Source of the DNA: Sinohyriopsis cumingii | Taxonomy: Eukaryota; Mollusca; Bivalvia; Unionida; Unionidae | NCBI GenBank assembly: GCA_028554795.2 | Contig: CM068835.1 | Coordinates: 54,400,219 to 54,464,218, forward strand | Direction of reading: 5' to 3' | DNA: 64,000 bases | Part shown: piece by piece, positions 10,400 to 64,000 of the stretch | Layout: each line of letters opens with the position of its first letter | Position numbering within the stretch: the first letter of the stretch is position 1 | Notes under the pieces: generated by a model | What the model saw: only the letters and a program-made list of their open reading frames with translations | Told to the model about the DNA's origin: nothing | The model's database searches: none | Translations under genes and position numbers: made by a program

Positions 10400-13300
10400 T
10401 TACACCCTACTTAAAAAATCAGCTCCCACATTTTCTGACCCTCGAATTGCCTCGATTTGAAAACTGTATGGTTGCAAAGACAACGCCCAACGCATCAATC
10501 TTGCATTGGTGACCTTTGCTTTATTCAAATATAAAAGCGGCTGATGGTCCATTTGCAAGGTAAACTCCCTCCCAAAAAGATATGTATGGAATTTTCCTAT
10601 TCCCCATACTAAACCTAGGCACTCCTTTTCAATCACGGAGTACTTTTCCTCTCTAGGGAGCAATTTCCTACTTGCATAAGCAATGGGCAATTTCATCCCC
10701 CCTTGCTCCTGTAGCAAAACAGCCCCAAGACCCGTATCGGACGCATCAGTCCTCAGTACAAAAGGTTTATCTATTTCCGGCAACATTAAAATTGGTGCAC
10801 TTACCAGTTTGTGTTTTAGAGTGTTAAACGCTTTTTCCTGGCATACACCCCATGAAACTTTATTCGGTTGCCCCTTCCTAGTCAAATCCGTTAATGGGCT
10901 GGCAATAGCCGAAAAGTTGGGGACGAATTTCCTGTAGAACCCGATTAGACCTAGGAAAGACCTTACTTGTTTTTTTGTCTCTGGTCTAGGGGCATCCCTG
11001 ATTGCTCCTATTTTATCTGGATGAGGCTGCAACTGGCCTAGTCCACTTACCAGATGTCCCAAACATTCCAGACTGGAATACCCTATGCTACACTTAGTAG
11101 GCCTAACTGAAAGGTTTGCAATGTGAAGTCTATCGAACAGATCCCGTAATACCTTAACATGTTCATCCCATGTATGCGTGTAAACAAAGATGTCGTCTAC
11201 GAAGCTGTCGACGTTTTCCGTTCCGTTTAATAATTTGCGCATGAGACGAACGCACGACGCACCGGCGTTGACTAAACTGAAAGGCATAACTTTAACTTGA
11301 AACAGTCCTTTGGGAGTTGCGAATGCCGTCAACTCGCGGGCATTATCGGCGATGGGTATCTGCCAATATCCCTTGCTTAGATCTAATTTGGAAATGTATT
11401 TATGACCTGCCAATTTTGAAAATACACTTTCCATATCTGGCATTGGTTCTGCGTCAAATACGGTGATCTTGTTTAATTGCCGAAAGTCGATGCAAAATCG
11501 GTTGGTCCCGTCTTTCTTTCTGACTAACACCACGGGGAACGAGTATGGGGAGTTTGAAGGTTCGATCACTCCCTGGTCTAACATTTTCATCACTTCTTCG
11601 CTGATTGTCTCCCGTGCATTAAAGGGTATCGGATATCCTTTAATCCTGATAGGCTCAGTGGTATTCAATTTGATCTCGTGTCGAATTAGACCCGTACAGC
11701 CTGGTCTGTCCGTGAACACATCTGGATATTTGGACAAAACCTCCATAATCTGTGTACGTTGACCCTCCGATAACTCAGGGCATACATTTATCTGGTCAAT
11801 ACTTTCTTTACCAACGTCCATGGGGTATTCAAGGGGTATTTCTGTGCTGGAGACGAATTCCGCTTCGTCACCAGACCTATCCTCTATCACCGCAATGCAT
11901 ACTACATTCAAAATCCCTTTATCAATCGTTTGTCCAGGTCTCGCTACGTAGAGTTTAAGCATATTGGCATGAAATGTCTTGGACTTCCCCTCCATATCAA
12001 TGATATAATCCATTTCGCCTTTCACCTGTCTGACTTCATATGGCCCTTTCCATTGGACTAGCAGCTTGTTGTTATTCGTTGGGAGAAGCACCAACACTTG
12101 ATCGCCTACATCAAATTTTTTACTCCGAGTTCCTCGGTTGTAGTACTTGGCGTACCTATGACTAGATTTCGCGAGTTCGTCTTGCGCCATTTGACAAGTA
12201 CTTTCTAATCTTTCGCGCAAATCAACTACGTAATGGTATGTGGTCATAACTTCTTCGTCCGCGAACGCGTCTGTCCACAGTTCACGAAGTATGCGCATAG
12301 GACCACGAACTGTCCTACCGTACAATAGTTCAAACGGGGAGAAACCCAAGCTTTCCTGAGGAACCTCACGATATGCGAACAGAAGGGCGTTCATATATCT
12401 ATCCCAATCCTTCGGTCTTTCCGCACACATTCTCCACAACATTTGCTTCAATGTGCCGTTGAATTTCTCGACCAATCCATTGCACATAGGATGGTAAGGT
12501 GTTGTGCGTAACTGTTTAAGGGACAACAACCTACTAATTCCTGCCATAAGATCTGAGGTGAATTGCGCTCCACAATCCGTAAGAACCTCTTCGGGCACTC
12601 CGACCCTGCTGAACATGTCTACGAGCGCTTCGACTACACATTCGGTTTCAATTGATGGCAAAGCTATGGCTTCTGGATATCTGGTAGCGTAATCTACCAG
12701 TGTCAAGATGTATCGGTTTTTCCGATCTGTATGCGGAAATATTGGTCCTACAATGTCGATGGCTACTCGTTTGAACGGAGTATCTATCAAGGGCATCTGA
12801 CCTAATGGTACTCTAGTTACCCTGCCCTTAGAGATCGTCTTCTGGCAAACGTCGCACGAGCGACAGAACCGCGCTATGTCGCAATTGACGCCAGGCCAAT
12901 AAAATTCTCTTAATACCCTATCCGTTGTTTTCTTTACGCCTAAATGACCTGCCATACTCGACTCGTGCGCAACCTTTAGTACATGTGCCCTAAATTTCTG
13001 GGGAACCACTAATTGCAAGAACTTCCTATCTGATGTAGAGTATTCCCTGTACATTAAACCCTTTTGAACAAGGAATTTAGAGGAACCCCCGTTCTTACAC
13101 TTTCTCATGGTACCCGTTAATGCCTTCTCAGAGGTTGCACGTAAAGACGCGTCACGTTTTTGCTCATTTTGGAATTCTTCGCGGGATATATCAGTAATGG
13201 CTTCCGGTACTTTTAACTTACGCAAAGGTTTATTTTCCTCCTTTACCTGAGCCCTAGTTTGCACTGCCTGGATGATAGGGAATCGGAAATCTGCTATGGT

Positions 13301-14824
13301 TGGGAGTCTAGAACCCGGTACGTTGCCAATCGTCAATTCATAGATCGGGTTGGCTACGCATAAAGCTTCCACAGTCCCGGTCAAAAAAGGTGTATCTATC
13401 ATTATCCTTGCAACTGGAACATGGTCGATTGTCTGGTCAAGCAACATGCAAGGTGATTTAACCCCAAGCAATTGATCATCGCGGACTAAGCTCTGTTTCA
13501 CGACTACAGTAGTGCATCCCGTGTCTCGTAGAACAGTGACTTCTTGTCCGTTAACAGTGCCGTTTGCGGTCGGTACTCGTGCCTCTGGAAAAATACACGT
13601 GCTGATTGATTGGATCACATCGCGACTGATCTCTGAACGCACCACCGGTTCACGCACCGCTTTCCGCTTAACTTGCTGGGAAACATTAAGTTTTCCATTT
13701 ACCGATCTTCTGCCTCTAATGGCTACCGCTACTTTCTGGACTGGTCCCTTCCGCTTAGGACAATAGTGGGAGATATGACCCACTTCCTTGCAAATGAAAC
13801 ATTGCATGTCACTCCGCTTCCCCTGGTTACTCCTACCAGATTTTTCAGGTTCCCTGGGTTTTCTGTCATTGACCTGATTCCCACCTTTGACATCTCGCGT
13901 GATGACATTCTGCGAACCTCCCCGAGCTTCGGCGAACAAATCCGCCTGTGTGGCCATTTCATGTACATTTGTGAAGGATCTTTCCTTCAAGAATAAATAT
14001 AACTCCTTGCCACAAGTTGTTAACAATTGGTCATGAAGCAAGAAATCGACAAGACCCTCAAATGTCTTGACGACTTTACCACATTCCACCCATCGCTGCA
14101 AATAATTGCAAGTCCTACTGACGAACTGGGTGAATGTTTCGCCTCTCTCTGGTTTACTATACTTAAACTTCTTGCGAAACCCTTGCTCGGTTAGTTCATA
14201 TTTCTTGAGAAGTGCCTCTTTCAACACGAGGTAATTGAGCGAATCGGCCGTGGATAAACGCGAATACACGTCTAACGCTTTACCTTTCAATAACGCGCTA
14301 AGATGGAGCGGCCAATCGTCTTTCTTCCATTTTTGTACCGTAGCATACCTCTCGAACCTATTTAGATAACTATCCATATTATCTTTATCGTCTTCAAATG
14401 GGGGCAGTTTTGGACCTCTCAGTTTAACATCATGTTCCCCCTCTTTTTTAGCTTGCAATAGCTCAGAATTTCTTAGATATTCCTTCTGCCGATTTCTATC
14501 TTCCCCTTCTACCTTCTCCCTCTCTGCTTCCCTTTCCCATTCTATCCTTTCCCTCTCAGCCTGTTTCTCTAGTTCAATCTTACCCTTCTCTAATTCTATC
14601 ATTTCCTTCTGGGTTTCCCTTTTTTCCCTTTCTATTTGTTGTTCCCTTTCAAATTTTTCCCTTTCTATTTGTTGTTCCCTTTCAAATTTTTCCCTCTCTA
14701 ATTCCCTCTCCTTTAATCTTTGGTCCCTCTCCCGGGCTTGTTCTTCACGAACGAAATTTCTAAGGGACTCCCCCTCATAACCAAACTGTTTCCCCAGTTC
14801 TACCAGTTCTTTCATAGAAGACAT
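10400..14824 (-). CDS. Gag-Pol polyprotein of the Gmr1-like retrotransposon
   Basis: About 1474 residues from the first ATG followed by a Gag-like sequence (MSSMKEL). An in-frame ATG 58 codons upstream would add a hydrophobic leader that looks non-Gag. Order: Glu/Arg/Lys-rich coiled coil (about 20-140) with a repeated EREKFEREQQ block; a SCAN-like Gag helical segment (about 225-310); a CCHC zinc knuckle (CFICKEVGHISHYC, about 340); an aspartic protease with DTG (about 433); the integrase HHCC finger (about 620-660) and D,D-35-E core (about 690-785) with a GPY/F-like tail; then reverse transcriptase with FVDD (about 1211) and RNase H with TDAS (about 1360). Ty3/gypsy elements normally place integrase last. 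Integrase before reverse transcriptase is the hallmark of the Gmr1 group. The frame looks whole. Gag and Pol are in one frame. Confidence 0.93.
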   Translation of the reverse strand: MSSMKELVELGKQFGYEGESLRNFVREEQARERDQRLKERELEREKFEREQQIEREKFEREQQIEREKRETQKEMIELEKGKIELEKQAERERIEWEREAEREKVEGEDRNRQKEYLRNSELLQAKKEGEHDVKLRGPKLPPFEDDKDNMDSYLNRFERYATVQKWKKDDWPLHLSALLKGKALDVYSRLSTADSLNYLVLKEALLKKYELTEQGFRKKFKYSKPERGETFTQFVSRTCNYLQRWVECGKVVKTFEGLVDFLLHDQLLTTCGKELYLFLKERSFTNVHEMATQADLFAEARGGSQNVITRDVKGGNQVNDRKPREPEKSGRSNQGKRSDMQCFICKEVGHISHYCPKRKGPVQKVAVAIRGRRSVNGKLNVSQQVKRKAVREPVVRSEISRDVIQSISTCIFPEARVPTANGTVNGQEVTVLRDTGCTTVVVKQSLVRDDQLLGVKSPCMLLDQTIDHVPVARIMIDTPFLTGTVEALCVANPIYELTIGNVPGSRLPTIADFRFPIIQAVQTRAQVKEENKPLRKLKVPEAITDISREEFQNEQKRDASLRATSEKALTGTMRKCKNGGSSKFLVQKGLMYREYSTSDRKFLQLVVPQKFRAHVLKVAHESSMAGHLGVKKTTDRVLREFYWPGVNCDIARFCRSCDVCQKTISKGRVTRVPLGQMPLIDTPFKRVAIDIVGPIFPHTDRKNRYILTLVDYATRYPEAIALPSIETECVVEALVDMFSRVGVPEEVLTDCGAQFTSDLMAGISRLLSLKQLRTTPYHPMCNGLVEKFNGTLKQMLWRMCAERPKDWDRYMNALLFAYREVPQESLGFSPFELLYGRTVRGPMRILRELWTDAFADEEVMTTYHYVVDLRERLESTCQMAQDELAKSSHRYAKYYNRGTRSKKFDVGDQVLVLLPTNNNKLLVQWKGPYEVRQVKGEMDYIIDMEGKSKTFHANMLKLYVARPGQTIDKGILNVVCIAVIEDRSGDEAEFVSSTEIPLEYPMDVGKESIDQINVCPELSEGQRTQIMEVLSKYPDVFTDRPGCTGLIRHEIKLNTTEPIRIKGYPIPFNARETISEEVMKMLDQGVIEPSNSPYSFPVVLVRKKDGTNRFCIDFRQLNKITVFDAEPMPDMESVFSKLAGHKYISKLDLSKGYWQIPIADNARELTAFATPKGLFQVKVMPFSLVNAGASCVRLMRKLLNGTENVDSFVDDIFVYTHTWDEHVKVLRDLFDRLHIANLSVRPTKCSIGYSSLECLGHLVSGLGQLQPHPDKIGAIRDAPRPETKKQVRSFLGLIGFYRKFVPNFSAIASPLTDLTRKGQPNKVSWGVCQEKAFNTLKHKLVSAPILMLPEIDKPFVLRTDASDTGLGAVLLQEQGGMKLPIAYASRKLLPREEKYSVIEKECLGLVWGIGKFHTYLFGREFTLQMDHQPLLYLNKAKVTNARLMRWALSLQPYSFQIEAIRGSENVGADFLSRV

Positions 14825-15051
14825 ATCAAAAGTTTGGTGGTGACCAACCTTAAAGTGCAGTTTTATACAAAACACGTAATTACCACAAACCGTATTTTCT
14901 TTCACGAAATGCAACAAAAATATTAAATACAAAAAATAAAGTAATATTAGGTATCTACCTAACCTTGGTGCTTTGTCAAACGCATCTGAAACACACAAAA
15001 AGCATACAAATATAATAAAACAATTTCAGTGCTCTGTTATATCCGAAATGA

Positions 15052-20552: not shown

Positions 20553-23500
20553 GTAAGCTGTTACCATGAAGACAGACTGGAAAACAGCCAAAAGTATGAA
20601 AGTACAATATGACAGATTAACCAGGACTGTGTATCTCAACCATTTGTAAAAACCAAACTAATAATTGTGGACTTTAAAGAACGTCTGCAGTATTTATGCA
20701 TCATCGGGCAGGAAGACAAAACCATTTTTTAATGCTAGGCTGTGGATTACTGGATTTGCCAAGTGAAATATTTGTGATAATTCACTGGAGTGAAATACAA
20801 TAAATATTTACACTGCTACATCATTAACTTTATACCCATGAAATTTGAGCAATTTTTAGATGCTTGCATAGTTTAGTTGTAAGTATGGATGCTTAGTGAA
20901 CAGACGAACCAAGTTGAAGTCCATTAGTATGCATCTTTTTATAAAATTTATATGCTGTTTTCTCTTAAGCTAGGAAGGTGAATCATGTTACCATTGATAT
21001 TGCCTGTGTGAATATACACATAAAACAGCGGAACATAAATGGTGTGTGTGATTTGGATTTTTTACGTAGCTTTAACAATTTTTCAGCACTGTAGTGTGGT
21101 AGTTTATAGTGATGTCTAGCACTGGGGCATCATCCAGCAGACATGTAGCAAGATGTCCAACCCAGTCACATTATCCTGACACCAGGCTGACCAGTCCTAA
21201 CACTAACATCTTAATGCTGAGCGCCAAGTGAGGCAGCTGTTCATACCATTTTTATGTCTTTGGTATGACTCGGCCGGGGATTGAACCCAGGCCTCCCACA
21301 TCCGGGGAGGATGCTCTAACCACTAGGCCACCAGAGCAGTCAAACATAAATGGTAAACTGTTGACATTATTGCAAGGGGTACAGCAAGAAATCTATTGAT
21401 TTGTTATACATATTGCTATCCAATACATTTGAGGATAAAATAAAAACAAAATTTACTTGCTTCAAGTGAGTCATAGATATAATTCATCTTGTGGGTTTAA
21501 AACTTAAGTATTTTCACCCATTAGATGAAATAGACCTGTTATTCACTCTTTTCAAGCAAATATCCACTCTACTTGTAATGTAACATTAATTGTTGCAACT
21601 GAAACCTTAGGTGATGTCATTATTATACATTACTGCTTCATAGTCCTTGGGCAATTCACTTTATTCTAATTGCTCTGGCATTAAATCGACCTGAACTAAA
21701 ACCAAAACTACTTCAGTATAGCACCCAGGTATGCAAATGGTTTGTGGTAATTGACTGTTCGCTGTCAGATTGTCATGAGTTAGCATGAATGGAAGCCAAT
21801 AATGAAAGTTAAATTTTGCATTTTATGTTGTTTTTTCTGGCAATGATTGGCTGCATCTCTATTTGTATCAAAGTCTTGCAACAAAAGGAGGTCACTTTGA
21901 CCAACATATAATAGTTTATTGATTTAGGTTACGTTTTTGGCATTGATCTCATATCTGCATTGGTTTTTTGAACACTGTATGTTATACATGGATTCATGAA
22001 ATTTGGTGTGGGATGCATCTTGATAAATGCTACACTCTTATAAAATAAGGTCATTGAGACCAATGTCTCATTTGTCTCTGACTTGAGTGAGCAGTGTGTG
22101 TTTAAGTATATTTCTCAAGTACTGTTCATGCTAGAATCATTAAACTAGATGATTGTATGCACATCCGTTACTCCCACACCATTGTGACCTCGTACATCTT
22201 TCTAAATCGTGTACATCCGAGCCTACAAAGAAGCCCTTTCTTACCAGTACGCTTCAAATCCTGAATACATCCAGTGTAAAATTTCCATATCAATGACTGT
22301 ACATTGTACATATTGTATGATAGGCTACCTTCAGTAGGTTAGCTGTGTACTATACATGTGATTGAGTGTAGGGATTAGAAAAGTGGACAGCATGCATTTC
22401 ATGTGATTCTTAGCTGCAGTGCCTGATCAAGGTAAATACTGATGCATGAACTATGAAATAGATTTCTAATATAATTCCAGTATAACATGGGCTGTTACTC
22501 CAAGGTTATTCAAAGCCTGTGTCTTTCATCCAGTCAAGTCTGGTATCTGGGAGTGGACCGCACATACTCATGTATAAGTTTAGTCCAGCTGCAGATTCAT
22601 AGGCCCTGCGTTGTTTGTTTTATTGATTACTCCTTAATGAACTGCATCAATGCAGTTGTACTGGAGCATTATGCAACAGCTGATCTGGGTTTGTGCAGAG
22701 TGCAGTTTGACTTGTAAGCATATATATATGGTAATATTTTCTGATGCAGTTTTTAACAATAATTTGTTTAAAAAAATTTTTATTCTCTTAGCTTGCATAC
22801 TGTCACACAATATTCTTGTTATAATTCTTTGATACTTTAGAAAAGAATGTTCTTTTTTTATTGTGCTTTTTATTCCATTTTGTGGGAGCCAGTATTTTGA
22901 TATCAAGATCACTTTAGTCTCAATTTATTTACTGCTTGAAAACAAATCTGTGCAATACCTTTCCATTCCATTGTTGATGTTCCAACCAAAAAAGTTTTAA
23001 GCTTTTTAAAAGATTACAATTTACATCAAACATTTGACTTTGTATTTGAAGGATTTATTTGTCATTAGCTTTTTTCTGTATCCCATAATTTGGGATATTC
23101 AGACTTGCTGGGAACTATATAGCCAGGGTTGTGCTGGTGTACCAGTATATTCTAGATATGCATGTAATGTCTGCTTGAGACTACTATAAGCTTAGTAGAT
23201 ATGAGCTATGTAATCATTGATTATGTTCTGGTTTCTAACAACATTGTAAAAGTGACTTATATGATCTGTTCTTGAGGGTAACCTTATCACCAAAAATTAT
23301 TTTACTAATAATAGAAAAACATATCAGCAGAGAATTTTACCAACCTGGACAATGTCTTGGCATTGAGGCCTTTCAGTATTGGACAAATGATGCTGACTTA
23401 CCATCAGATGTGAAGGATGAAAGCAAATATAGAGATGGTTTGGAATGGTTGTTTTCATTACATGCAGTCAACAGCTTTGGAGGAAGTTTATATAGCAAAG

Positions 23501-54969: not shown

Positions 54970-55431
54970 TCAGAGAATATAAAGATAAGAAGAGAGACTT
55001 TAGAAACGTTCAAAAACTGGCTGTGGAAAAATATATGGGGGAGGTGTATGAAGAAATTGAAAAAGCACATGAATGCGATGTAAGACACTTTTGGAAAATC
55101 ATCAACATTAAGAGAGGGAACAATATAAATTTTTGTCAGGAACTATCAACTGATGGAGTTTGTGTCCGTGATGATGATTCCATCGCAAATCGCTTTGCCA
55201 GATACTATGAGGACATTCACACGCCGAATTTAAACCATAGTTTTGACGGAAACTTTTATGAATTTATAGAGAGAGAATTAAATCGGGGTCTACAGGACGA
55301 AGTAAGCCATATCGAGGCCTTACAGACCAGTATCAGTTTAAACGAAGTAGGAGAAATCATTAAAGGTCTAAAGAAACCAAAAGCATCGGGCCATGATCAA
55401 ATTTGCAATGAACATTTGATCTATGGCAAGT
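54970..55431 (+). mobile_element. LINE fragment B: pre-RT region and first RT motif, truncated
   Basis: One open frame ending at 55,431 contains ECDVRHFWKIINIKRG, then DGVCVRDDDSIANRFARYYE, then LKKPKASGHDQICNEHLIYG, the first conserved RT block (K-P-KA-G-D-I-NE-L). The RT stops there abruptly, exactly where a new repetitive sequence begins, which is read as the Polinton insertion point. The style differs from fragment A, so A and B may come from two different LINEs joined near 54,965. Confidence 0.7.
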
Positions 55432-55740
55432 AGTAAATGGGGATACCCTAGCCTCAATGGGAATTAGCATTACAGAGACCCCTGGGACACTCTAGCCTCA
55501 ATGGAAATTTAACATGGAGATAATTGCTGGGCCACTCTAGGGACAAGGGGAATTGAACATGGGGAATAGAGTTTGGGCTTGTCTATGGACAAGGGGAATT
55601 GAACATGGGGAATAGAGTTTGGGCTTGTCTAGGGACAAGGGGAATTAACATGGGGAATAAATTGTGGGGTCTGCATAGGGACAATGGGAATAGAGTTTGG
55701 GTTTGTCTAGGGACAAGGGGAATTGAATATGGGATTTTTT
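55432..55740 (-). repeat. 46-bp minisatellite at the presumed Polinton left terminus
   Basis: Imperfect units around CTAGGGACAAGGGGAATTG recur at about 55,537, 55,582, 55,629, 55,674 and 55,707, and more diverged units fill 55,440-55,536. Polinton terminal inverted repeats often carry such arrays, so this may be the left inverted repeat, but its partner is outside the window. It is followed by an A/T homopolymer block (about 55,733-55,780). Confidence 0.7.
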
Positions 55741-55825
55741 TTAAAAAAAAGTTTTTTTAAATTTAAATTTAAATTTAAAAAAGGGTAGGCAATGGAAAGG
55801 CTATCTCTTTTCGAGAAATATGGCT

Positions 55826-55841
55826 GGCCCTGAAAAGGGCC
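55826..55841 (-). terminator. Histone-type 3' stem-loop of small gene A
   Basis: The minus strand reads CCCAAA-GGCCCTTTTCAGGGCC-AGCCA: a 6-bp stem with a TTTC loop and a CCAAA 5' flank, the canonical metazoan histone mRNA 3' stem-loop. It lies 25 nt past the stop codon of gene A. Fourteen nt further is AAAAGAG (plus 55,805-55,811), complementary to the CUCUUUU of U7 snRNA, in the position of the histone downstream element. Confidence 0.88.
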
Positions 55842-55866
55842 TTTGGGTTTTCTTCTTCTTCTGCTT

Positions 55867-56256
55867 CTAATTTCTTCTTTTTCTCCACCAACTTCTTATT
55901 TTATCTCCAACACTCTTTCTCTTCTTTTCTTTCTTTTTTCTCTCCTCCTCTTCTTTCTTCTTCTCTTCCTCCTCTTCTTTCTTCCTCTTTTCATTTTCTT
56001 CTTCTTTCTCAATTTTTTCATTCCATGCTCTCATCCTTATCCTTTCCTCTTCATCCTCCTTCTCCTCCTTTATCTCTTTCATTACACCACTTATCTTGTC
56101 CTTTACCTTTCTCAAGTTATTAATTTCCATCTTTACACGATGGGGACTATAGGAATAGTGGTCTTCAACGAGTCTTATTAACATCTGCTCCATCATTCCT
56201 AAATTGTCTAAAACGTCTTGCAATGTTTGCATCTTGTCCATTTGGTTCGAAGCCAT
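55867..56256 (-). CDS. Small charged coiled-coil protein A of the Polinton
   Basis: 129 residues from ATG at 56,256. The N-terminal 50 residues form an amphipathic helix (TLQDVLDNLGMMEQMLIRLV), followed by a long Glu/Lys/Arg-rich coiled coil (about 65-125) ending in WWRKRRN, a possible nuclear-localisation or DNA-contact tail. I know no family for it. It is the leftmost of three genes sharing cassette structure: promoter element plus TATA-like box, short leader, ORF, histone-type stem-loop 25 nt after the stop. Low-complexity Glu/Lys sequence makes homology searching unreliable, so the N-terminal helix is the better query. The function is unknown. The S-phase-type 3' end suggests expression during host DNA replication. 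Confidence 0.7.
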   Translation of the reverse strand: MASNQMDKMQTLQDVLDNLGMMEQMLIRLVEDHYSYSPHRVKMEINNLRKVKDKISGVMKEIKEEKEDEEERIRMRAWNEKIEKEEENEKRKKEEEEEKKKEEEERKKKEKKRKSVGDKIRSWWRKRRN

Positions 56257-56295
56257 CTTCTTGTAGAATGGTTTGAACGACGAATACTGTGGGTT

Positions 56296-56412
56296 CTTAT
56301 AGTGAAAGCGCGGACGTGATGGAAAACATCCCCCTTAAAACATAAAATTGATCTTACCTAGATCATGACCAAAGAAACAGCAACGCGCGGACGTGAAGGA
56401 AAACATCCCCCT
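56296..56412 (-). promoter_or_regulatory. Promoter of small gene A: TATA-like box and two copies of a shared upstream element
   Basis: Read on the minus strand, a TATA-like CTATAAG (56,296-56,302) is preceded by the element at 56,306-56,334 (GGGGATGTTTTCC, TCACGTCCGCGC). A second copy lies at 56,385-56,412. The same element with a TATA-like box lies in front of genes B and C. The TATA-like box is about 40 nt from the start codon, so the leader must be very short. Confidence 0.75.
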
Positions 56413-56433
56413 ACTTTTCTCATTTCATATAAT

Positions 56434-56789
56434 AAAACCCAAACTATACTCTCCACATACGCTAAGAAACAATAAACAAAATCCATAATCTACTATCCAC
56501 ACAATCGTACGTGAGCGGTTACAAAACCCAAACTATACTCTCCACATACGCTAAGAAACAATAAACAAAATCCTTAATCTACTATCCACACAATCGTACG
56601 TGAGCGGTTACAAAACCCAAACTATACTCTCCACATACGCTAAGAAACAATAAACAAAATCCATAATCTACTATCCACACAATCGTACGTAAGCGGTTAC
56701 AAAACCCAAACTATACTCTCCACATACGCTAAGAAACAATAAACAAAATCCATAATCTACTATCCACACAATCGTACGTGAGCAGTTAC
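56434..56789 (-). repeat. Four tandem copies of an 89-bp unit
   Basis: Units beginning AAAACCCAAACTATACTC start at about 56,435, 56,523, 56,612 and 56,701 and are nearly identical (a few substitutions), so the expansion is recent. A single diverged unit-like sequence occurs in the matching spacer upstream of gene B (about 57,480-57,610), which shows that the array grew inside one cassette. Confidence 0.9.
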
Positions 56790-56863
56790 AAACACAAACA
56801 CACAAACACATACCCTCGCACTATGAAAAAAGAGTTAGTGTTTATAATCACACTACTCTACCT

Positions 56864-56865
<2 letters not shown>

Positions 56866-56898
<33 letters not shown>

Positions 56899-56906
56899 CA
56901 CACACA
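56866..56906. repeat. (CA)n microsatellite
   Basis: About 20 CA dinucleotides between the 89-bp array and the downstream element of gene B. Confidence 0.9.
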
Positions 56907-56946
56907 TTGGCAAATCGATAGTTATTTCTTTTCTAGAGTATTGGGT

Positions 56947-56962
56947 AGCCCTTAAAAGGGCT
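56947..56962 (-). terminator. Histone-type 3' stem-loop of small gene B
   Basis: The minus strand reads AAAAACA-GCCCTTTTAAGGGC-TACCCA, with a 6-bp stem counting the outer A-T pair and a TTTA loop (fits the UYUN loop rule), followed by the canonical ACCCA. It lies 28 nt past the stop of gene B. The purine element GAAAAGAAA follows 13 nt later (plus 56,925-56,933). Confidence 0.87.
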
Positions 56963-56990
56963 GTTTTTTTTTAACTCCAGATGCACCTAT

Positions 56991-57299
56991 CTAATGGTTG
57001 CACCTTCCTGGCCTGGCGCCACACACGCATCTTCTTCCCCAGTCTCCTTTCACCTTTCTTCTGGGGAGCGCAGAGGGAGGATGATTCGCTTCAACACCCC
57101 AATCCTCTGTCTCGGGAATATTGTACGACATCCTCTCTTCTAGTTTCTTTTCCTCCTCTTCCCTCTGTCTTCTCTCCTCCTCTTCGTTCTTCATTCTTTC
57201 CTCTTCTACTATAGCCTCCGCGGCCAGTTCATTTAACAGGCGCCTGACATATTCCAGATGTATCTGGAGTTCAAGAAGTTTGCTTATTCTGCTATTCAT
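56991..57299 (-). CDS. Small charged coiled-coil protein B of the Polinton
   Basis: 102 residues from the first ATG at 57,299 (MNSRISKLLELQIHLEYVRR). The N-terminal helix has the same plan as proteins A and C (SKL-EL---LE-VR--L), followed by a Glu/Arg-rich coiled coil (about 35-60). The C-terminal 40 residues are different: Pro-rich, basic and with two or three Cys (RRCVCGARPGRCNH), which could hold a metal. No known family. Flanked by the shared promoter upstream and a histone-type stem-loop 28 nt after the stop. Confidence 0.65.
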   Translation of the reverse strand: MNSRISKLLELQIHLEYVRRLLNELAAEAIVEEERMKNEEEERRQREEEEKKLEERMSYNIPETEDWGVEANHPPSALPRRKVKGDWGRRCVCGARPGRCNH

Positions 57300-57350
57300 T
57301 CTTGTGTTGATCAATCAACAAGGGTAGCTAGACTGACCAGCGAGTTTCAA

Positions 57351-57452
57351 TTTATAGTGAAAGCGCGGACCTGATGGAAAACATCCCCCTAAAACATAAA
57401 ATTGATCATAACCAAAAAACAACAACGCGCGGACCTAAAAGAAACACTCACT
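57351..57452 (-). promoter_or_regulatory. Promoter of small gene B: TATA box and two copies of the shared element
   Basis: The TATA sequence CTATAAA (minus strand of 57,351-57,357) is preceded by the element at 57,361-57,390. A second, more diverged copy lies at about 57,426-57,450. The arrangement and spacing equal those of gene A. The TATA box is about 50 nt from the ATG. Confidence 0.75.
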
Positions 57453-57735
57453 CACTTTTTTATGCTACCCATCACTATTTTAAAATTTTTTTATAAATCA
57501 CTTCAATAGACTATCCACATACGCAAAGCAATCCAATCTAACCCCAAATTTACACCTCAAACACCAAAAAAAAAGACATCATTTTAATCTACTATCCATA
57601 CCAACTTACTTAACCACTTACAAACACAAACACATACCCTCACATTTTTTTTAAAAGAGTTAGTGTTTATTTTCACACTACTCTACCTACACACATTGGC
57701 AAATGGATTGTTATTTCTTTTCTAGAGTATTGGGT

Positions 57736-57751
57736 AGCCCTGAAAAGGGCT
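57736..57751 (-). terminator. Histone-type 3' stem-loop of small gene C
   Basis: The minus strand reads AAAAACA-GCCCTTTTCAGGGC-TACCCA. Stem, TTTC loop and ACCCA flank match the canonical histone element except that the outermost pair is A-T. It lies 28 nt past the stop of gene C. GAAAAGAAA follows 13 nt downstream (plus 57,714-57,722). Confidence 0.9.
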
Positions 57752-57779
57752 GTTTTTCTGTTTGCTATGGCATTCTTTT

Positions 57780-58139
57780 TTAATTTCTAAGAATGCGATG
57801 TCCTCTGAGGATAGACTTTCTGGCGATAGGTCTGCTTCTTCGAAAAGAGAAGAAGAACTCTTTGGTGTCGATACGACAATCGACAAAGCCTCTGTCAACT
57901 TCAGGTTGCTGCTGCTGTTGTTGTTGTTGCTGCTGTTGCTGCTGTCTCTGAAGTCTGTACTTCTCTGTCCATTCTTCTTTTTCCCTGTTCATTTCTTCTC
58001 TGAAGAGCTCTTCTATCAGGTCTTCAGTGATTTTTAACATTCTCACATTCTCTATTTCTTCTGGCTTCGGTATCAGACTGTGTCTGACCCTATGCAAATT
58101 CACGTAGGCTTCGTTGAGCTTAGCTAGTTTGGAGCACAT
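57780..58139 (-). CDS. Small charged protein C of the Polinton, with polyglutamine tract
   Basis: 119 residues from ATG at 58,139 (MCSKLAKLNEAYVNLHRVRH). The N-terminal helix resembles A and B. The middle is acidic/basic helix (about 30-65), then a run of about 14 Gln encoded by mixed CAG/CAA codons, then a basic tail (FRRSRPIARKSILRGHRILR). No family recognised. It sits between the major capsid gene and gene B but in its own cassette with a separate promoter and a histone-type 3' end. The Gln tract is coded by interrupted repeats, so it may be selected rather than simple slippage. Confidence 0.68.
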   Translation of the reverse strand: MCSKLAKLNEAYVNLHRVRHSLIPKPEEIENVRMLKITEDLIEELFREEMNREKEEWTEKYRLQRQQQQQQQQQQQQQPEVDRGFVDCRIDTKEFFFSFRRSRPIARKSILRGHRILRN

Positions 58140-58193
58140 CTTCGTAGGAGGATGAGTCGACAATGGATGGTTAGACTGGAAACAACCCCTGTT

Positions 58194-58232
58194 CTTAAAG
58201 TCAAAGCGCGGACGTGAAGGAAAACATCCCCC
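58194..58232 (-). promoter_or_regulatory. Promoter of small gene C: TATA-like box and the shared element
   Basis: TATA-like CTTTAAG (minus strand of 58,194-58,200) is preceded by the shared element at 58,204-58,232 (GGGGGATGTTTTCC, TTCACGTCCGCGC). Only one element copy is seen here. It lies about 55 nt before the ATG. Confidence 0.7.
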
Positions 58233-58337
58233 ACACGGTTTTTGAGTCGCAACGTTTAGTGAGTGTCATGAGAGGGATAGTAAGAAATGAAAGAGCATCA
58301 ATCCAACATTCTTATAGCTAAACAAACCACAAAGGCA

Positions 58338-58525
58338 TTTTTTTCAAAACACAACATTTTTTATTCAAAAATCACTTAACACTAAACAACAACTCTAACA
58401 TTTTTAACAATAATCCAACAATATAACATCAAACAATTTTTTCAAAACACAACATTTTTTATTCAAAAATCACTTAACACTAAACAACAACAACTCTAAC
58501 ATTTTTTAACAATAATCCAACACTA
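58338..58525 (-). repeat. Duplicated poly(A)-signal region after the major capsid gene
   Basis: Two copies of a unit of about 97 bp, AT-rich, each with AATAAA on the minus strand (plus 58,360-58,365 and 58,458-58,463). They lie 100-210 nt past the stop of the capsid gene and would end its mRNA in the ordinary way. Confidence 0.75.
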
Positions 58526-58571
58526 AAAGTTTCTCCACTAGGTAAAGAGGGATAACAGTCTTCCATGGTTT

Positions 58572-59871
58572 CTAGCAATCCAGGATGACTTCTCTCAAAC
58601 TGTTGATTTCTATGGTATTATCGAATTCAGCATACAGGATGACGTTCACCGTTTCATCAGGGTCTCGGTCTTTAAACTGGATTTCCACACGAATCTGGCC
58701 AGATTTTATAGGGTGGAAATGTCCCTCGTCGCTGCCTTGGTCTGGAGTGAAATCGAAAGCCCACAAAGCGTAGCCTCCTGCATAATCCTCGTACGTAATA
58801 CCGTGACTGGTATTGGTTCCTAACTGTCCGGTGGCTTCGTACAGGGACAAGTACGATCTCAAGTAATTCTTCTTGGTAAAGTCAGGTTCAAAAGGTTTTG
58901 CCATCGCGACTGACTTCGATTTTGGACACGCCAAAGTGTTGAAAGTAGAAAGGATTTTTTTCGGCAGCTCCGTTGAAGGCTGTATTCTCGACGATACCAA
59001 CGATCAAACGTTTGGGTAACTGTCCTTGGAACAGATGATCTTCGATCATGGATCGCTGTCCCTTGGGAATGGTGAAGGTTTTCACTTCCACGCGTTGTAT
59101 GGGATACTTGGCGGTTGTTCTGCTCAACGTCTGACTGATGTCGTTTCCCACTTTAGGTAACACTTCCACACGGCGTACGTAGAGTCTGGCTTCTTGGATT
59201 TTGATTTTGTAACCGTCACTATCAGCCATCAAATGGAAAGCGGCACTGCTACGATTCAGTCTCAGGCGGACATCCACCCCGTTCAGCAAATACTTTTCTT
59301 GCAACCACATGTCCAAATGCAAACGATCCATCAGTTCTAAACTTGTGTCGGCTCCCGTGATTCTCTTTCTTCGTTCTACAAATTCATCATTGTTGTCTTT
59401 CTTTTCATCAGTTTCCAATATTTCAAACTTGGTAGGTTCGTCAGCTTCCCATACCACACAGGCATTGAGATGAGTGTTCTTGGCATCTATTCCGTACGTC
59501 AAGAGATTTTCCAGGTAGGCACGATAAGGGTAAGTATCCATGCTGCTACTGACCAGTTTGTTATTCAAGTACAAGTCCACTCCACTGAACAAGGAATGCA
59601 TGAAATTGTTGACGGGAGCTACTGCTTCATCGTCTATAGGACCTCCAGTCTTATCTAGAATTTTGACTTTCAGGTACAAGTAACTGCTATTCAGATCGAT
59701 GTAATCTTCGGGCTGTCCTTTGATTTCAAACTCGATGGGAGCGGAATCGGTCAGTGAGGAGACGGGGTGAAATTCCACCCATTGGGATTCTTGCATCGTC
59801 ATCATCGTGGGGGGCATGGCAAACAGCTCCAGTTCCGTCTTGGAACAAGCGCAAGATTCTCGGTGCATCAT
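58572..59871 (-). pseudogene. Polinton major capsid protein (double jelly-roll, F54H12.2-like), broken
   Basis: The N-terminus MMHRESCACSKTELELFAMP, the WVEFHPVSSLTDSAPIEFEI block, YIDLNSSYLYLKVKI and GVDLYLNNKLVSSSMDTYPY are the landmarks of the family widely annotated as 'F54H12.2-like' in invertebrate genomes. From the Polinton literature I take this family to be the double jelly-roll major capsid protein. The later RSMIEDHLFQGQLPKRLIVG block also matches. It looks broken about once. It is last in the capsid block, followed by duplicated AATAAA signals. Confidence 0.8.
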
Positions 59872-59890
59872 TTTTTTTTTGTCTCTTTTC

Positions 59891-60308
59891 TCAATAATCG
59901 AAAACGTCTAAGTCTCGAACGGTTCTTCTTTTCTTGGCCTTTCTCGCTTGAAGTCTGGTGAAAGGGTGTTTTCTTCGTCGTCTCTTTCTGCCTTGTCCTT
60001 GCTGAATGCCTGACTCGGTAGCGTGCAGGGCATTTATAGGTGTCTCTCGTTGGCCTAAAATGTCTTTGCCCGTTTGCAGCAAGACATTTTTGCCTGCCCT
60101 CATGAAGGCTTCTTTAGGGTTTTGTTTGTCGATGATGACATTTTGGAGAAATTCTTTGCCTTGCGTCAGTGCCGCATCTTTCAAGGCGTGCAATCCGCGT
60201 GTCACCATCGGTTTCAAGACTGGGGCCACCTAACGAAAGGCCGATTTTAACATGTCTCCTAAGCCGTGTCCTCGCTGTCGAGCAACCCCTCGGTACACTG
60301 GATACATG
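59891..60308 (-). pseudogene. Basic core-like protein of the Polinton, broken
   Basis: The protein has a Gly/Arg start (MYPVYRGVARQRGHGLGDML), a helical middle with several short repeats and a very basic tail (GQGRKRRRRKHPFTRLQARK) that could bind DNA in the virion, in the manner of adenovirus-like core proteins. It looks broken about once. It lies between the penton-like and major capsid genes, a usual place for such a protein. The functional assignment is by analogy only. Confidence 0.55.
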
Positions 60309-60314
60309 ACTTAC

Positions 60315-61237
60315 TTACGAGTCGTGAGAGAACCGTTTTCGAAAATGGAGTTTCACCGTGACTTTTCCTTTGATGAATGGAATATTTTGTCCCAAATCTC
60401 CTTTTAGAGCAATGTTGACCGTGTCCAAATACGACTTGCTGACAGGCAAATAGTGAGGATGGACAAATTCGCGGTGGACGTGGTAAGTGTTTCCACCTTC
60501 CTCGTCAGCGCCCGTGGCAGAATCTACTTTGAAAGGAATGACACGCAGTAACGGTACGGAGGTGTGTCCCACCACGTTGTACTCCACCACATCGGAATAC
60601 ACGAACATCAAATTCAGTGCTTGGTTCAGTTCTACCGGGGCACGAAATAACTTGCTAAAAGACTCGTTGTCGTAAACGATGGGTAATTCGTTTTTCTTGA
60701 GCATGGCCTTTCTCATGTCTATGTCTCCGCCCAACATGTCAAACAATTCGGACAAAATAAAATGGACACGATTTTACTCCGTTCAAATTTCATCAAGAAG
60801 CGACGAGCTGCTTTGTGGTACTCCATGGTGACATTTTTGTTGACATGCTCCAAAGCTTTCAGAAACACGACATTAAACCTGGAGGTTATGGTGCTGACCA
60901 AATGTTGACCACTAAAATAATAGCCTGGGGGAATGAACAAGTGATAGGTGGTGTACTTTTGTGTACGGGTTTTCTTGTCATATTTGACATTGCTATCCAT
61001 CCACTGTTGCATTTGCTTGTCATGAACTTCCACATCAAAAAAATTTTGATTGGGAAGGACATTGAGGACTTGGGTCGGGTGAATCATTTCTACTAAAGCC
61101 ACTTCCCAATGGGCTTCGTGATTTAAATGGATGGCCTGAGGTAATTTGGCCGTGTAACAGCACAACGTGTTCTTGGGAAACACCTCCATGGAACTGTCAC
61201 TGGGTAAAGTTAAGTAAAATTGGTTTTGGTGACTCAT
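60315..61237 (-). pseudogene. Polinton penton-like minor capsid protein, broken
   Basis: The start MSHQNQFYLTLPSDSSMEVF, then LPQAIHLNHEAHWEVALVEM (the family's 'L-G-WEVAL-EI-YP' block) and, later, the PLLRVIPF and YLPVSKSYLDTVNI blocks mark the single jelly-roll minor capsid protein that accompanies the F54H12.2-like capsid protein in Polintons and adintoviruses. It looks broken about once. Its start overlaps the end of the membrane-protein gene in an ATGA arrangement. Confidence 0.75.
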
Positions 61238-61740
61238 AATTCCAGAGTTCTGTGGCTGTCCGAGGGGTTAGTGGACGTCAGAGGCGTGTCTCTGTCTAAA
61301 ATGGGGTTCTGGTTGTGATTGAAGTGGTGACTGGCACTGGCACTGGACAGAAGGTTCCCGGGGTTCCCGTTCGAGGTGAATTTCAGGGAGGGATTAGGAA
61401 GCAGGTAACCGATGCAACTGCTCAATAAAATGGTCCACAATTGTTTGTCTCCTTGTTGCAAACTCAAATTGGCGATGGCTGCCCCGATGACACAATACAC
61501 CACGAAGATTTGACAGAAAAAGACGATTTGCGTTTTAGGCACACGTTCTCCACACCACACCCACAAGGGTTGTTTTTGTAAATCTTGCACAGAAGAACTA
61601 GGTGAAGGAGGAGTGGTCGACGTAGCTGCGTCTGCTGTGTGATGGTCACTTCTTTTTATAGTCGATGACTTGCGAAGCGTCGATCCAAGAATCAAAACTG
61701 GGTGGATATCCTTTCCAACGTACTTTGACTTCTTTGACAC
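61234..61740 (-). CDS. Polinton membrane protein with two transmembrane helices
   Basis: The conserved part reads CGERVPKTQIVFFCQIFVVY then CVIGAAIANLSL, and LWTILLSSCIGYLLPNPSLK: two hydrophobic helices separated by a short Gln/Lys loop. This pattern is typical of a small protein found next to the penton and capsid genes in animal Polintons. The true start is unclear. The open frame has no ATG and overlaps the 3' end of the integrase gene, so only the conserved core (about 61,300-61,600) is certain. The Ser/Asn-rich C-terminal tail is about 45 residues. The role is unknown (envelope, egress or capsid-associated membrane factor). Confidence 0.6.
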   Translation of the reverse strand: MSKKSKYVGKDIHPVLILGSTLRKSSTIKRSDHHTADAATSTTPPSPSSSVQDLQKQPLWVWCGERVPKTQIVFFCQIFVVYCVIGAAIANLSLQQGDKQLWTILLSSCIGYLLPNPSLKFTSNGNPGNLLSSASASHHFNHNQNPILDRDTPLTSTNPSDSHRTLEL

Positions 61741-62755
61741 GTCGTTTGCCCACTTTACGGGTTCTGCGTTCGAGAATCATTTCGATGTCGTACACGTCGT
61801 CTTCTTTTTTGGTGACACGTTGTAACTCGGGCAAATAAAACGTTCCTTTGAGCACTTCTCCGTTCATGTCTTCCAATTTGTAGACGGCAGGATGACGGCC
61901 ATGCACTCGTCCAGTGACGCGAAACAATTCGGTCGTCCAGTTAGGTAAGTAACCTTTGTCGAAAGTGCGTTTGGTTTTGCCAATCCTCACCCAATCTCCT
62001 ACGGCCAACTCTCCACTTTTCTTGGGGACAGCCCTCGTCGGGGACGTACCAAACAGGCGCTCAAACACCAACACTTCGTTCTCGGGAGTCACGTCTTGCG
62101 GGGCACGTCCAATGCTTCGATGGTAAGATTGGTTGTACGCTTGCACCAGGTGCGGTAAGATGTCGATGTACTTCAGAGTGTGGTGATGCGTAAAATGTTT
62201 CCACATGCGTTCTTTCAAAGTGCGTTGAAAACGTTCCACGATGCTGGCTTTGGTTTCGGGATTCTCGGTGGTAAAAAAATGAATGTCACGTTTCTTTAAT
62301 TCTTTTTGGAAAGCTTGGTTCAGAAATTCGGTACCTTTGTCCGTTTGCCATCGAAGAGGGTGACGACCGCTTTGTTTCAACACCCGTTGCAGGGCTCGCA
62401 CTAACTCGCTGCTCGATTTGGAAGTCAAGGGTACGACCCAGGCAAATTTGGAAAAGACGTCGATGACACAAAACAAATATTTGTAGCCACGATTGTAGCT
62501 GGCCAAATGAGAGACATCGGCTAAATCGGCTTGCCATTGATGATCGATGCCTTCCACTCGGGTGCGACTTCTGGCAAACTTGCGTCGAATGGATCTGTGT
62601 AAAGTGTAGGTAGCTTGTTCTTGTAACCATCGTTGCACTTGAGGTAAACGGAGACTTTTCAGTCGAGTTTTGGCAGCACGATACAATTTTTGAACTCCTG
62701 CGTAACCTGCAGGATGGGAGGGATCGTAGTAAATGCTGGCTAAGACTTTTTCCAT
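61646..62755 (-). CDS. Polinton retroviral-type integrase with chromodomain
   Basis: 369 residues from ATG at 62,755. The start MEKVLASIYYDPSHPAGYAG is the usual beginning of Polinton integrases. Order: N-terminal helical/HHCC-like region (about 1-65), catalytic core with D77 (WQADLAD), D139 (WQTDKGTEF) and E174 (SIVERFQRTL), a C-terminal SH3-like segment with VGDWVRI, and a chromodomain (about 322-365, ending VRWKGYPPSFDSWI). It inserts the element's DNA. The chromodomain may guide it to chromatin marks. The frame is open from end to end. It lies 22 nt after the preceding gene in a compact minus-strand block. Confidence 0.92.
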   Translation of the reverse strand: MEKVLASIYYDPSHPAGYAGVQKLYRAAKTRLKSLRLPQVQRWLQEQATYTLHRSIRRKFARSRTRVEGIDHQWQADLADVSHLASYNRGYKYLFCVIDVFSKFAWVVPLTSKSSSELVRALQRVLKQSGRHPLRWQTDKGTEFLNQAFQKELKKRDIHFFTTENPETKASIVERFQRTLKERMWKHFTHHHTLKYIDILPHLVQAYNQSYHRSIGRAPQDVTPENEVLVFERLFGTSPTRAVPKKSGELAVGDWVRIGKTKRTFDKGYLPNWTTELFRVTGRVHGRHPAVYKLEDMNGEVLKGTFYLPELQRVTKKEDDVYDIEMILERRTRKVGKRRVKEVKVRWKGYPPSFDSWIDASQVIDYKKK

Positions 62756-62777
62756 TTTTTTTGTGTTGGTTGGTGTG

Positions 62778-63419
62778 TTAATAAGACACCCACTCTTGGA
62801 GGATGCTACTCTTTTTCTCTTGGGGTACTTTCTTGGATTGCAATGCTTTGCGTGTGCGGCCGGCAATAGGTGTTGAAGAGGAGGATGTCTGAGCGGGGGA
62901 TATCGGTTCTTGTTTCACTTCTGTCTTCACTTCTGTCTTCACTTTCTTTTTCTCTTGTGATGAAGAAGGGGTGGCCATCATCTTTTTAATCCATCCAATT
63001 CTGGAGGTAGGTGGTGTTGTTAACTTGCGTACTTTTTCTGGTGGAGTTTGAAACCCTTCTTCTTCTTCTCCTTTTTCTGTCTTGGTCACTGGTACTGGTG
63101 GTACTGGTACTGGTACTGGTACTGGTGATGGTGCTGGACTTTTCATCAAGGTCTTAAAATCTTTTAGAGTGGGTAGAGCTGTTTCGTCTAAAGCTTTCTG
63201 GTGAAAGAGTTGCAGTCGTTGCAAGAGTTGACCGTACTTTTGCGATTTTTCTGTTTCGGACAAATCTTGGCGATCCATCAAGGACTGCAATTCGTGTTGT
63301 AACTGGGACATTTCGCTCAAATTGGGATTGGGAGGTAAATGCGGGGTGCGTTGTTCTTGCCACCGATGGTATTCCATCCATCGTTTGTAAGACACTAAAG
63401 CTAGTTTTCGTCCTTCCAT
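62778..63419 (-). CDS. Polinton accessory protein, Pro- and Lys-rich
   Basis: 213 residues from ATG at 63,419 (MEGRKLALVSYKRWMEYHRW). The N-terminal KLALVSYKRWM-like block, a Gln/Leu-rich helical region (30-85), a Pro-Val repeat (PVPVPVPVPPVPV, about 96-112) and a Lys/Glu-rich tail recur in Polinton proteins usually placed beside the integrase. Its role is unknown, with scaffold or DNA-packaging help as guesses. The frame is open. The stop is 22 nt before the integrase start. Confidence 0.6.
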   Translation of the reverse strand: MEGRKLALVSYKRWMEYHRWQEQRTPHLPPNPNLSEMSQLQHELQSLMDRQDLSETEKSQKYGQLLQRLQLFHQKALDETALPTLKDFKTLMKSPAPSPVPVPVPVPPVPVTKTEKGEEEEGFQTPPEKVRKLTTPPTSRIGWIKKMMATPSSSQEKKKVKTEVKTEVKQEPISPAQTSSSSTPIAGRTRKALQSKKVPQEKKSSILQEWVSY

Positions 63420-63467
63420 GGGGTTGTCAGGGGTCGATTCTGAGATCTTGTGACTTCCGAAGGCCTT

Positions 63468-63854
63468 TTATCTTGCTCCCACTAGTCCTCCCAACATGGT
63501 TCCCAAGACTCCTTTCAGTATGGGGCCTAACAAGAGAGGCAAAATGCCTCCACGTTGGACCAACATCTTCTTTTTTTGACGAATGGGAATTTTCTTTTGA
63601 ACCATTTGGCGAAGAACGTGACGATGTTTGCCTAAGCATTGTTTCTGGTGTTTGGACAAAGGGATCGTGCCTTTCAAAACGTTCAAACAACATTCGCACA
63701 CGGTATCGATGACCTCTTTGGAGGCCGTTTGAATGAGTTTTTTTCGTAGGGGTGGAGAAGCTTTGGACAGGACAGATAACATGTCCCCATGTTTGGCTAA
63801 ACGTGGTGGCAGTCCTTTCCTTTTCTTTCCTTGGGGTTTTCTGGAGGGTGACAT
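63468..63854 (-). CDS. Polinton basic protein with hydrophobic C-terminal tail
   Basis: 128 residues from the first ATG at 63,854 (MSPSRKPQGKKRKGLPPRLA). It contains TVCECCLNVLKGTIPLSKHQ, then a basic helix, and ends with a Gly/Leu hydrophobic stretch (GGILPLLLGPILKGVLGTML). This plan (C-x-C cysteines, KG--PLSK, basic helix, then a hydrophobic tail) is common to small Polinton proteins compared with the adenovirus core/membrane-active peptides. The open frame continues upstream of the ATG to 63,935, so a longer start or a spliced leader cannot be excluded. Confidence 0.6.
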   Translation of the reverse strand: MSPSRKPQGKKRKGLPPRLAKHGDMLSVLSKASPPLRKKLIQTASKEVIDTVCECCLNVLKGTIPLSKHQKQCLGKHRHVLRQMVQKKIPIRQKKKMLVQRGGILPLLLGPILKGVLGTMLGGLVGAR

Positions 63855-64000
63855 CTTTGAATCTTCAGGAGCACCAAAAAAACACTGATACCCTACTCGG
63901 TCACAGGCCTTTTTTATACTGGAACGCGTCGCCACTGATTGTCTTTACGTCGTATCAGTTTGAGGACAGGCATGACACGTCGTGCAGGGGTACGTAACGG

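Follow-up and report, generated by a model that had tools for sequence, protein, structure and literature searches.

Histone-type 3′ hairpins, downstream elements and promoter elements at accessory genes of a multi-copy Polinton in Sinohyriopsis cumingii

The window analysed here, a 64,000-nt stretch of the Sinohyriopsis cumingii genome (GCA_028554795.2, CM068835.1, positions 54,400,219–54,464,218, forward strand), contains part of a multi-copy Polinton of the Maverick/adintovirus type (Table 1). The element shares with its type a PolB, an integrase with rve and chromo domains, an A32-like ATPase, an F54H12.2-like capsid protein and terminal inverted repeats (TIRs), and differs from it in that its accessory genes end in the manner of histone genes. 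Further parts of the element, among them the ATPase, PolB and two small genes, X and Y, lie to the right of the window. PolB belongs to family B, viral/organellar type, and is matched by PF03175 in two pieces (E values of 1.1e-24 and 7.3e-13), and the packaging ATPase matches Pox_A32 above the Pfam cut-off. The capsid protein has 504 relatives, of which several among the 120 listed are named F54H12.2-like; its profile gave no match when compared with solved structures. A cysteine protease was assigned to none of the ORFs. The left and right TIRs (the right one in contig L078) are 96% identical over at least 409 aligned positions.

Table 1 Features of the Polinton in the window (positions are those of the window)
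Feature	Position	Strand	Details
Left terminal inverted repeat	55448..55850 (at least)	.	Aligned to right TIR
Purine element, gene A	55805..55811	−	AAAAGAG; 14 nt past hairpin
Hairpin, gene A	55826..55841	−	GGCCCTTTTCAGGGCC; RF00032 35.6 bits; left TIR inner edge
Gene A	55867..56256	−	ORF; 129 aa, charged protein, function unknown
Promoter element, gene A	56307..56330	−	24/24 versus host H2B promoter
Second promoter element copy upstream of A	56384..56407	−	22/24
Purine element, gene B	56925..56932	−	AAAAGAAA; 14 nt past hairpin (to AAAAG)
Hairpin, gene B	56947..56962	−	AGCCCTTTTAAGGGCT; RF00032 31.1 bits, E 7.9e-6, below gathering score
Gene B	56991..57299	−	ORF; 102 aa, function unknown
Promoter element, gene B	57362..57385	−	23/24
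Purine element, gene C	57714..57721	−	AAAAGAAA; 14 nt past hairpin (to AAAAG)
Hairpin, gene C	57736..57751	−	AGCCCTTTTCAGGGCT; RF00032 31.0 bits, E 9e-6, below gathering score
Gene C	57780..58139	−	ORF; 119 aa, glutamine run, function unknown
Promoter element, gene C	58205..58228	−	23/24
Major capsid protein gene	58572..59871	−	Two frame pieces, 58888–59871 (by homology) and 58572–58907
Integrase, rve and chromo domains	61646..62866	−	Pfam PF00665 and PF00385

A Pfam scan of the products of A, B, C and X matched no histone family, and by this measure the four are not histone genes. For gene Y, no open frame of 60 aa or more is listed in the window's own copy of the element; the predicted fold of a Y relative is poor (mean pLDDT of 39.7).

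In animals, histone genes are closed by a special RNA hairpin signal. The first-pass annotation had located hairpins of this kind 25–28 nt after the stop codons of three minus-strand genes, and both their positions and their letters are confirmed: the distance is 25 nt at A and 28 nt at B and C, with A, B, C and X together spanning 25–28 nt. Each hairpin has the form described by the Rfam histone 3′ UTR stem-loop model (RF00032), with a 6-bp stem, a 4-nt loop, an A-rich 5′ flank and an ACCCA-type 3′ flank, the last reading AGCCA, not ACCCA, at A and Y. Allowing up to two mismatches, the hairpin pattern occurs four times in the 64-kb window, the matches corresponding to the three sites with one of them read on both strands, far above the mean of 0.06 matches in 100 shuffles. 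The earlier count of three such genes holds within the window, but the element has five, since the hairpins of X (41.2 bits) and Y (33.2 bits) lie just to the right of it. Scoring against host histone genes, which the annotation had proposed as a check, gave a divided result: with a gathering score of 34 bits, A and X lie above the threshold and B, C and Y below it (2 of 5 sites pass), and the element's range of 31.0–41.2 bits lies near the 35.0–39.4 bits of the host H3, H4, H2B, H2A and H1 hairpins. The core genes examined, including integrase and capsid, carry no such hairpin.

The purine-rich element that had been placed 13–14 nt past the hairpins is found at 14 nt in all three genes, counting from the hairpin to AAAAG; X and all 59 of the other sites measured show the same distance. 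The corresponding distance in the host is 14 nt at H3 and H2B and 15 nt at H2A and H1, and the GAAAAG core is common to the element and the host histone genes. Upstream of A, B and C lies a further feature, absent from the first-pass annotation, a 24-bp element that also occurs in host histone promoters, at H2B (24/24), at H1 (23/24) and, inverted, near H2A (20/24); in 60 simulated sequences no site came closer than 7 mismatches. Host H3 and H4 gave no match to this element, which is also absent upstream of X and Y, where the longest word common to the X/Y promoter and the host histone unit is 9 bases and shuffles reach 14. The small genes of the element resemble the replication-dependent histone genes of animals in being short, in having a 16-nt hairpin 25–38 nt after the stop and a purine element 14–15 nt further on, and, at A, B and C, in a promoter element common to host H2B, H1 and H2A; they differ in sitting within a Polinton and, for A, B, C and X, in lacking a histone Pfam match.

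The combination of hairpin and purine element occurs at 54,920 sites in the 2.9-Gb genome and at none in the reversed control. Five-hairpin arrays of 16–21 kb are a frequent arrangement; among the first 100 listed sites, 55 belong to 11 complete arrays. All 75 of the sites scored with RF00032, which are the best-scoring ones only, stand behind A-, X- or Y-type genes and pass the gathering score. Comparison of the copies gave dN/dS values of 0.10 for A (mean dS of 0.71), 0.18 for B (1.03) and 0.13 for Y (0.76), indicating that these three proteins are under purifying selection; constraint on X is weaker (0.53, at low dS). Hairpin and spacing are kept across copies at mean dS of 0.7–1.0 while linker lengths vary, although for A and Y this conservation is partly a selection of matches, because their copies were found via the hairpins. 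Among 22 hairpins (20 distinct), 97.5% of the cells in the stem alignment are paired and two pairs have changed on both sides. At 65 gene ends in other copies, recognised by their last residues, the hairpin lies 15–27 nt after the stop, and at 12 further recognised ends 60–472 nt away. P0122, a relative of Y from a different source (75% identity), extends beyond the point where Y normally stops, and the residues KPFSGP in it agree with an in-frame reading of the hairpin.

Relatives outside this genome were sought in several collections. The capsid query and alignment found none in the viral contig collection. The search of other Polintons for the same hairpin, suggested by the first-pass annotation, came back empty: at E values up to 1, RF00032 matched none of three Polinton contigs of different origin that are binned with bacteria (L079 and L081 in an Escarpia endosymbiont bin, L080 in a Breoghania bin), of which L079 and L081 test little because only 1.3–1.5 kb is present past the capsid gene. 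In IMG/VR, the hairpin pattern with ACCCA had 0 matches; a looser pattern picked out five contigs, none of them at the RF00032 gathering score, and these were taken as chance.

The accompanying claim of novelty stands in part. Among the titles and abstracts listed, all of open-licence papers, none describes gene ends of histone type in Polintons or in any other virus, and in PMC5799277 'histone' occurs in a reference only. However, six histone 3′ UTR stem-loop Rfam matches have been tallied, without comment, in polinton-like viruses and virophages (PMC12220804); the section on non-coding RNA there gives the count alone, with no host, gene, downstream element, promoter or function. Adomaviruses and their 'Histoid'-bearing relatives (PMC11071296, a preprint) are likewise animal DNA viruses with a link to histones, but they encode a histone-like protein, whereas here genes that are not histone genes are regulated in the histone manner; the main text of the preprint does not use the term 'stem-loop'.

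The reading that best accommodates these features, to which we assign a probability of about 0.8 on sequence grounds, is that a lineage of Polintons has appropriated the way in which the host expresses its histone genes and applies it to accessory genes A, B, C, X and Y. The hairpin of each pre-mRNA would be bound by the host stem-loop binding protein (SLBP) and the purine element by the U7 snRNP, and the transcript would be cleaved a few nucleotides downstream of the hairpin and receive no poly(A) tail. Genes A, B and C would be driven by the promoter element of host H2B, H1 and H2A genes, and with promoter and 3′ end combined they would be expressed most strongly in S phase, the most favourable time for the element to replicate its DNA; the integrase, capsid, ATPase and PolB genes would remain outside this programme. 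The signals themselves were probably captured from the host. The first-pass proposal that a virus-like element uses borrowed histone 3′ signals on part of its gene set is for the most part supported by the sequence tests, namely the hairpin scores, the spacing of the purine element, the restriction to accessory genes and the conservation in diverged copies, and is further supported because the host-histone promoter element sits at A, B and C. For U7 pairing, the agreement of the purine element with those of host histone genes would be indirect support. Neither a host U7 snRNA (sought with RF00066 and one pattern) nor the RNA-binding domain of host SLBP was found, negatives that say little because the control genomes were silent too.

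It is unlikely that the transcripts are mostly polyadenylated through a downstream AATAAA, with the hairpin serving as a secondary or conditional site as in some histone genes. AATAAA does follow the stop by 108 nt at C and 93 nt at X, so polyadenylation could act there as a fallback, and human H2AC18 pre-mRNA is described in PMC9756948 as capturing both histone and canonical processing complexes. Yet neither AATAAA nor ATTAAA occurs within 300 nt of A or B, and polyadenylation would not require the conserved spacing between hairpin and purine element. The major capsid protein gene, which lacks a hairpin, has AATAAA 108 and 206 nt after its stop. That the hairpins have their function at the DNA level, perhaps by forming cruciforms during replication or packaging, is very improbable: the A and Y sites do mark the inner edges of the two TIRs, but those of B, C and X are internal, on the coding strand the hairpin stands close behind the stop in A, B, C and X and at the 65 other ends, and its loop and flanks, like the downstream element, agree with those of histone mRNA, an agreement that a cruciform would not need.

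Passive spread of signals captured once, by copying and gene conversion and with no present function, would fit the 98–99% identity of many copies and the damaged hairpins in some (L004 gene B and L042 gene C); we give it hardly any credence, as hairpin and spacing have persisted through the divergence noted above despite varying linkers, and stem changes are partly compensated. Equally remote is a main role in titrating SLBP or U7 snRNP, which would disturb the host histone supply rather than serve viral protein expression. A first look at the host gave 662 candidate histone-fold genes, far fewer than the 54,920 genomic sites, but the attached A, B and Y genes are under purifying selection as proteins.

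Rather probably, an animal DNA virus lineage has captured the complete programme by which the host expresses its replication-dependent histone genes, comprising the promoter element and the poly(A)-independent 3′ end, as the code of its accessory regulon; viral copies, in this host many-fold more numerous than the host's own signals, would then have to be kept silent or else compete for SLBP and U7. Annotation of this genome calls for caution in any case, given that the best-scoring RF00032 matches all mark Polinton-family genes. If the reading is correct, the histone code would extend, with the five genes of this element, to a class of genes that encode no histones; these would serve as natural reporters of the features that confer S-phase specificity, and the tie between accessory gene expression and host DNA replication would be explained. 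With so many copies, the question can be addressed in ordinary RNA-seq data of Sinohyriopsis cumingii.

The left part of the Polinton occupies the minus strand from approximately 55.4 kb to the window's right edge, and the next 8.5 kb to the right contains an A32-like ATPase, PolB and the divergently oriented genes X and Y. The order of the element is repeat, A, B, C, capsid, integrase, ATPase, PolB, X, Y, repeat, and the inverted repeats at its left and right ends match at 96% over 409 aligned positions. Among the ORFs listed for the window's copy, Y has no open frame of ≥60 residues; this gene was identified by the letters preceding its hairpin and by intact copies elsewhere. The capsid frame is interrupted near its end in the window's copy, and is longer and uninterrupted in many of the 122 copies scored; of the 120 capsid relatives listed, 16 bear an organism name, and 12 of these are from bivalves.

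Features of the Polinton within the window
Feature	Position	Strand	Remark
Gene A	55867–56256	minus	Polinton, left part
Gene B	56991–57299	minus	Polinton, left part
Gene C	57780–58139	minus	Polinton, left part
Capsid gene	58572–59871	minus	two frame pieces
Integrase		minus	rve and chromo domains; window part of Polinton

Between the 3′ end of B and the promoter of A (56450–56800) lie tandem copies of a unit of, by eye, very roughly 100 bp. Elsewhere in the window, two very similar, consecutive Gypsy-type retrotransposon frames (4265–8859 and 10400–14998), one a single 1532-residue frame and the other split, were observed, as was a tRNA-like match at 21266–21337 (30.6 bits, barely over the Rfam cut-off).

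A histone-type hairpin lies 3′ of all five accessory genes, scoring 35.6 (A), 31.1 (B), 31.0 (C), 41.2 (X) and 33.2 bits (Y) with the Rfam histone 3′ stem-loop model (RF00032; gathering score, 34 bits). The three hairpin genes of the first-pass annotation, A, B and C, were borne out, but its count was too low, as X and Y also possess the structure. Its proposal that only a subset of the genes is so equipped holds: RF00032 gave no match beyond the accessory-gene sites at E ≤ 1 in window 55000–64000 or in L071 and L078, the rightward continuation of the element, so the core genes there lack the hairpin, and inspection of core ORFs one by one found none downstream of their stops. The capsid gene has AATAAA at 108 and 206 nt past its stop and no hairpin, and no AATAAA or ATTAAA was present within 300 nt (260 nt for one) of the stops of the remaining core ORFs checked. 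Both AATAAA copies sit in a repeat of roughly 100 bp (58300–58480). The A and Y hairpins are located at the inner border of the terminal repeat, so that both outermost genes terminate within it.

A host tandem histone unit (L082) contains H3, H4, H2B, H2A and H1, whose hairpins all score 35.0–39.4 bits. The host purine element has the core GAAAAG; its distance downstream of the hairpin is 14 nt for H3 and H2B, 15 nt for H2A and H1, and by eye 14 nt for H4, the automatic measure having met an earlier AAAAG there. In A, B, C and X, AAAAG is found 14 nt past the hairpin, inside GAAAAGA, in agreement for A, B and C with the 13–14 nt claimed previously. Judged by score and by purine core and spacing, the 3′ signals of the element are comparable to those of the host, B and C scoring somewhat lower and X higher.

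A 24-bp promoter element, GATGTTTTCCATCACGTCCGCGCT, is located upstream of A, B and C with 0, 1 and 1 mismatches, respectively. In the host it occurs in the H2B promoter with 0 mismatches, at H1 with 1 and, inverted, near H2A with 4, and was not found at H3 or H4; the next-best site in the histone unit has 8 mismatches, and the best match in 60 simulated sequences, matched in length and neighbour composition, has 7. It was not found in L071 or L078, so X and Y lack it; these genes have a common divergent promoter of a different kind. The 23-base core of the element occurs 6,101 times in the genome, compared with 0 for the reversed control.

Seven diverged copies located via their A-type hairpins (L001, L004, L005, L006, L008, L073 and L075) retain the promoter element with ≤3 mismatches. 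Linker lengths vary among copies, while the hairpin and its spacing are retained. Across 22 hairpins, 20 of them distinct and some from the host, stem pairing is present in 97.5% of cells; one stem pair alternates between G–C and A–U, with 3 rows unpaired at that position, and another between C–G and U–A, the latter only in host H1. The C hairpin is intact in 26 of 30 loci located by the capsid gene rather than via the hairpin, the exceptions being L042 (one stem base changed), L050 (region missing) and L063 and L066 (stretches that stop short of the hairpin); these loci are weak evidence, as their capsid proteins are 98% alike. A second hairpin is intact in 28 of 30 loci located through gene C. 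Mean dN/dS was 0.10 for A (mean dS 0.71; dN < dS in 5 of 5 usable pairs), 0.18 for B (1.03; 6 of 6), 0.13 for Y (0.76; 20 of 20) and 0.53 for X (0.075; 14 of 15), one A pair and one Y pair with dS ≤ 0.02 having been left out. One relative of Y (75% identity), of different origin, reads beyond the usual stop and contains KPFSGP, which, from the protein letters alone, would be the in-frame translation of the hairpin.

Variants of the accessory genes were also observed. L004 and L073 contain a second A-gene type (MDVEYVVGRIEKEW... in L004), which has the promoter element, hairpin and a C-terminal motif in common with gene A; the remainder of its protein looks unlike that of A, as though the coding sequence had been swapped. 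Otherwise close copies (L014, L018 and others versus the window's B) carry one or the other of two B types, which differ in their 3′ leaders (TAGATAGGTGC and TAACCAGGTGTCC). X (L078, 3077–3628) combines an acidic, aromatic N terminus with a glutamine-rich central region, a possible activation domain; its 20 relatives (53–87% identity) come from metagenomes and other sources.

In the RF00032 search of the 2.9-Gb genome, 75 of 589,472 first-look candidates were scored and all 75 exceeded the cut-off; one of 14 control genomes gave a signal, under the cut-off. All 75 sites sit behind genes of the window's Polinton family (23 A-family, 29 Y and 23 X by manual tally; 20 A, 29 Y, 24 X and 2 unassigned by automatic recount with loose markers). 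At the DNA level the two unassigned sites belong to the A family, and so does L008, which had no open frame; 59 of the loci (L083–L141) were covered over about 400 bases each, their Polinton location being taken from the gene. Neither the window's site A nor the host histone hairpins (35.0–39.4 bits) are among these best 75 of 589,472; the set is incomplete, and its lack of histones reflects ranking and truncation, not absence from the genome. For host histone-fold genes there were 662 first-look candidates, of which 150 were scored. The combined hairpin and purine pattern is present at 54,920 sites, against 0 for the reversed control; in the host histone unit it fits H2B only, out of five genes. 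The first 100 of these sites listed include 11 groups (55 sites) forming complete five-hairpin arrays of 16.3–20.9 kb, and 17 X/Y pairs spaced 1.0–1.2 kb apart. At five sites each, the 54,920 sites extrapolate very roughly to ten thousand elements.

The nearest precedent found is the non-coding RNA section of PMC12220804, which counts six histone 3′ UTR stem-loops in polinton-like viruses and virophages without further comment, so that isolated Rfam matches there are already on record. The earlier statement was that no description of this in Polintons was known; of the accessory-gene link, the purine and promoter elements and the genome-wide array, none was found in the literature examined. 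Three of three Polinton contigs from other sources (L079, L080 and L081) gave no signal, and the hairpin signal is therefore not claimed as general to Polintons.

In histone mRNA, the hairpin is bound by SLBP, and U7 snRNP recognizes the purine element by base pairing; CPSF73 cleaves the pre-mRNA a few bases beyond the hairpin, coupling the mRNA to S phase. Passages of PMC9756948 and PMC5011920 agree on the main points of this processing. Searches of the host genome found neither U7 snRNA nor SLBP, and the control genomes were silent too. From their 3′ signals, all five accessory genes would use the histone 3′-end route through SLBP, U7 and CPSF73. The promoter element common to host histones and A, B and C suggests that the timing of these three genes is set at transcription too, and its presence at three different host histone genes makes capture from host to element the likely direction.
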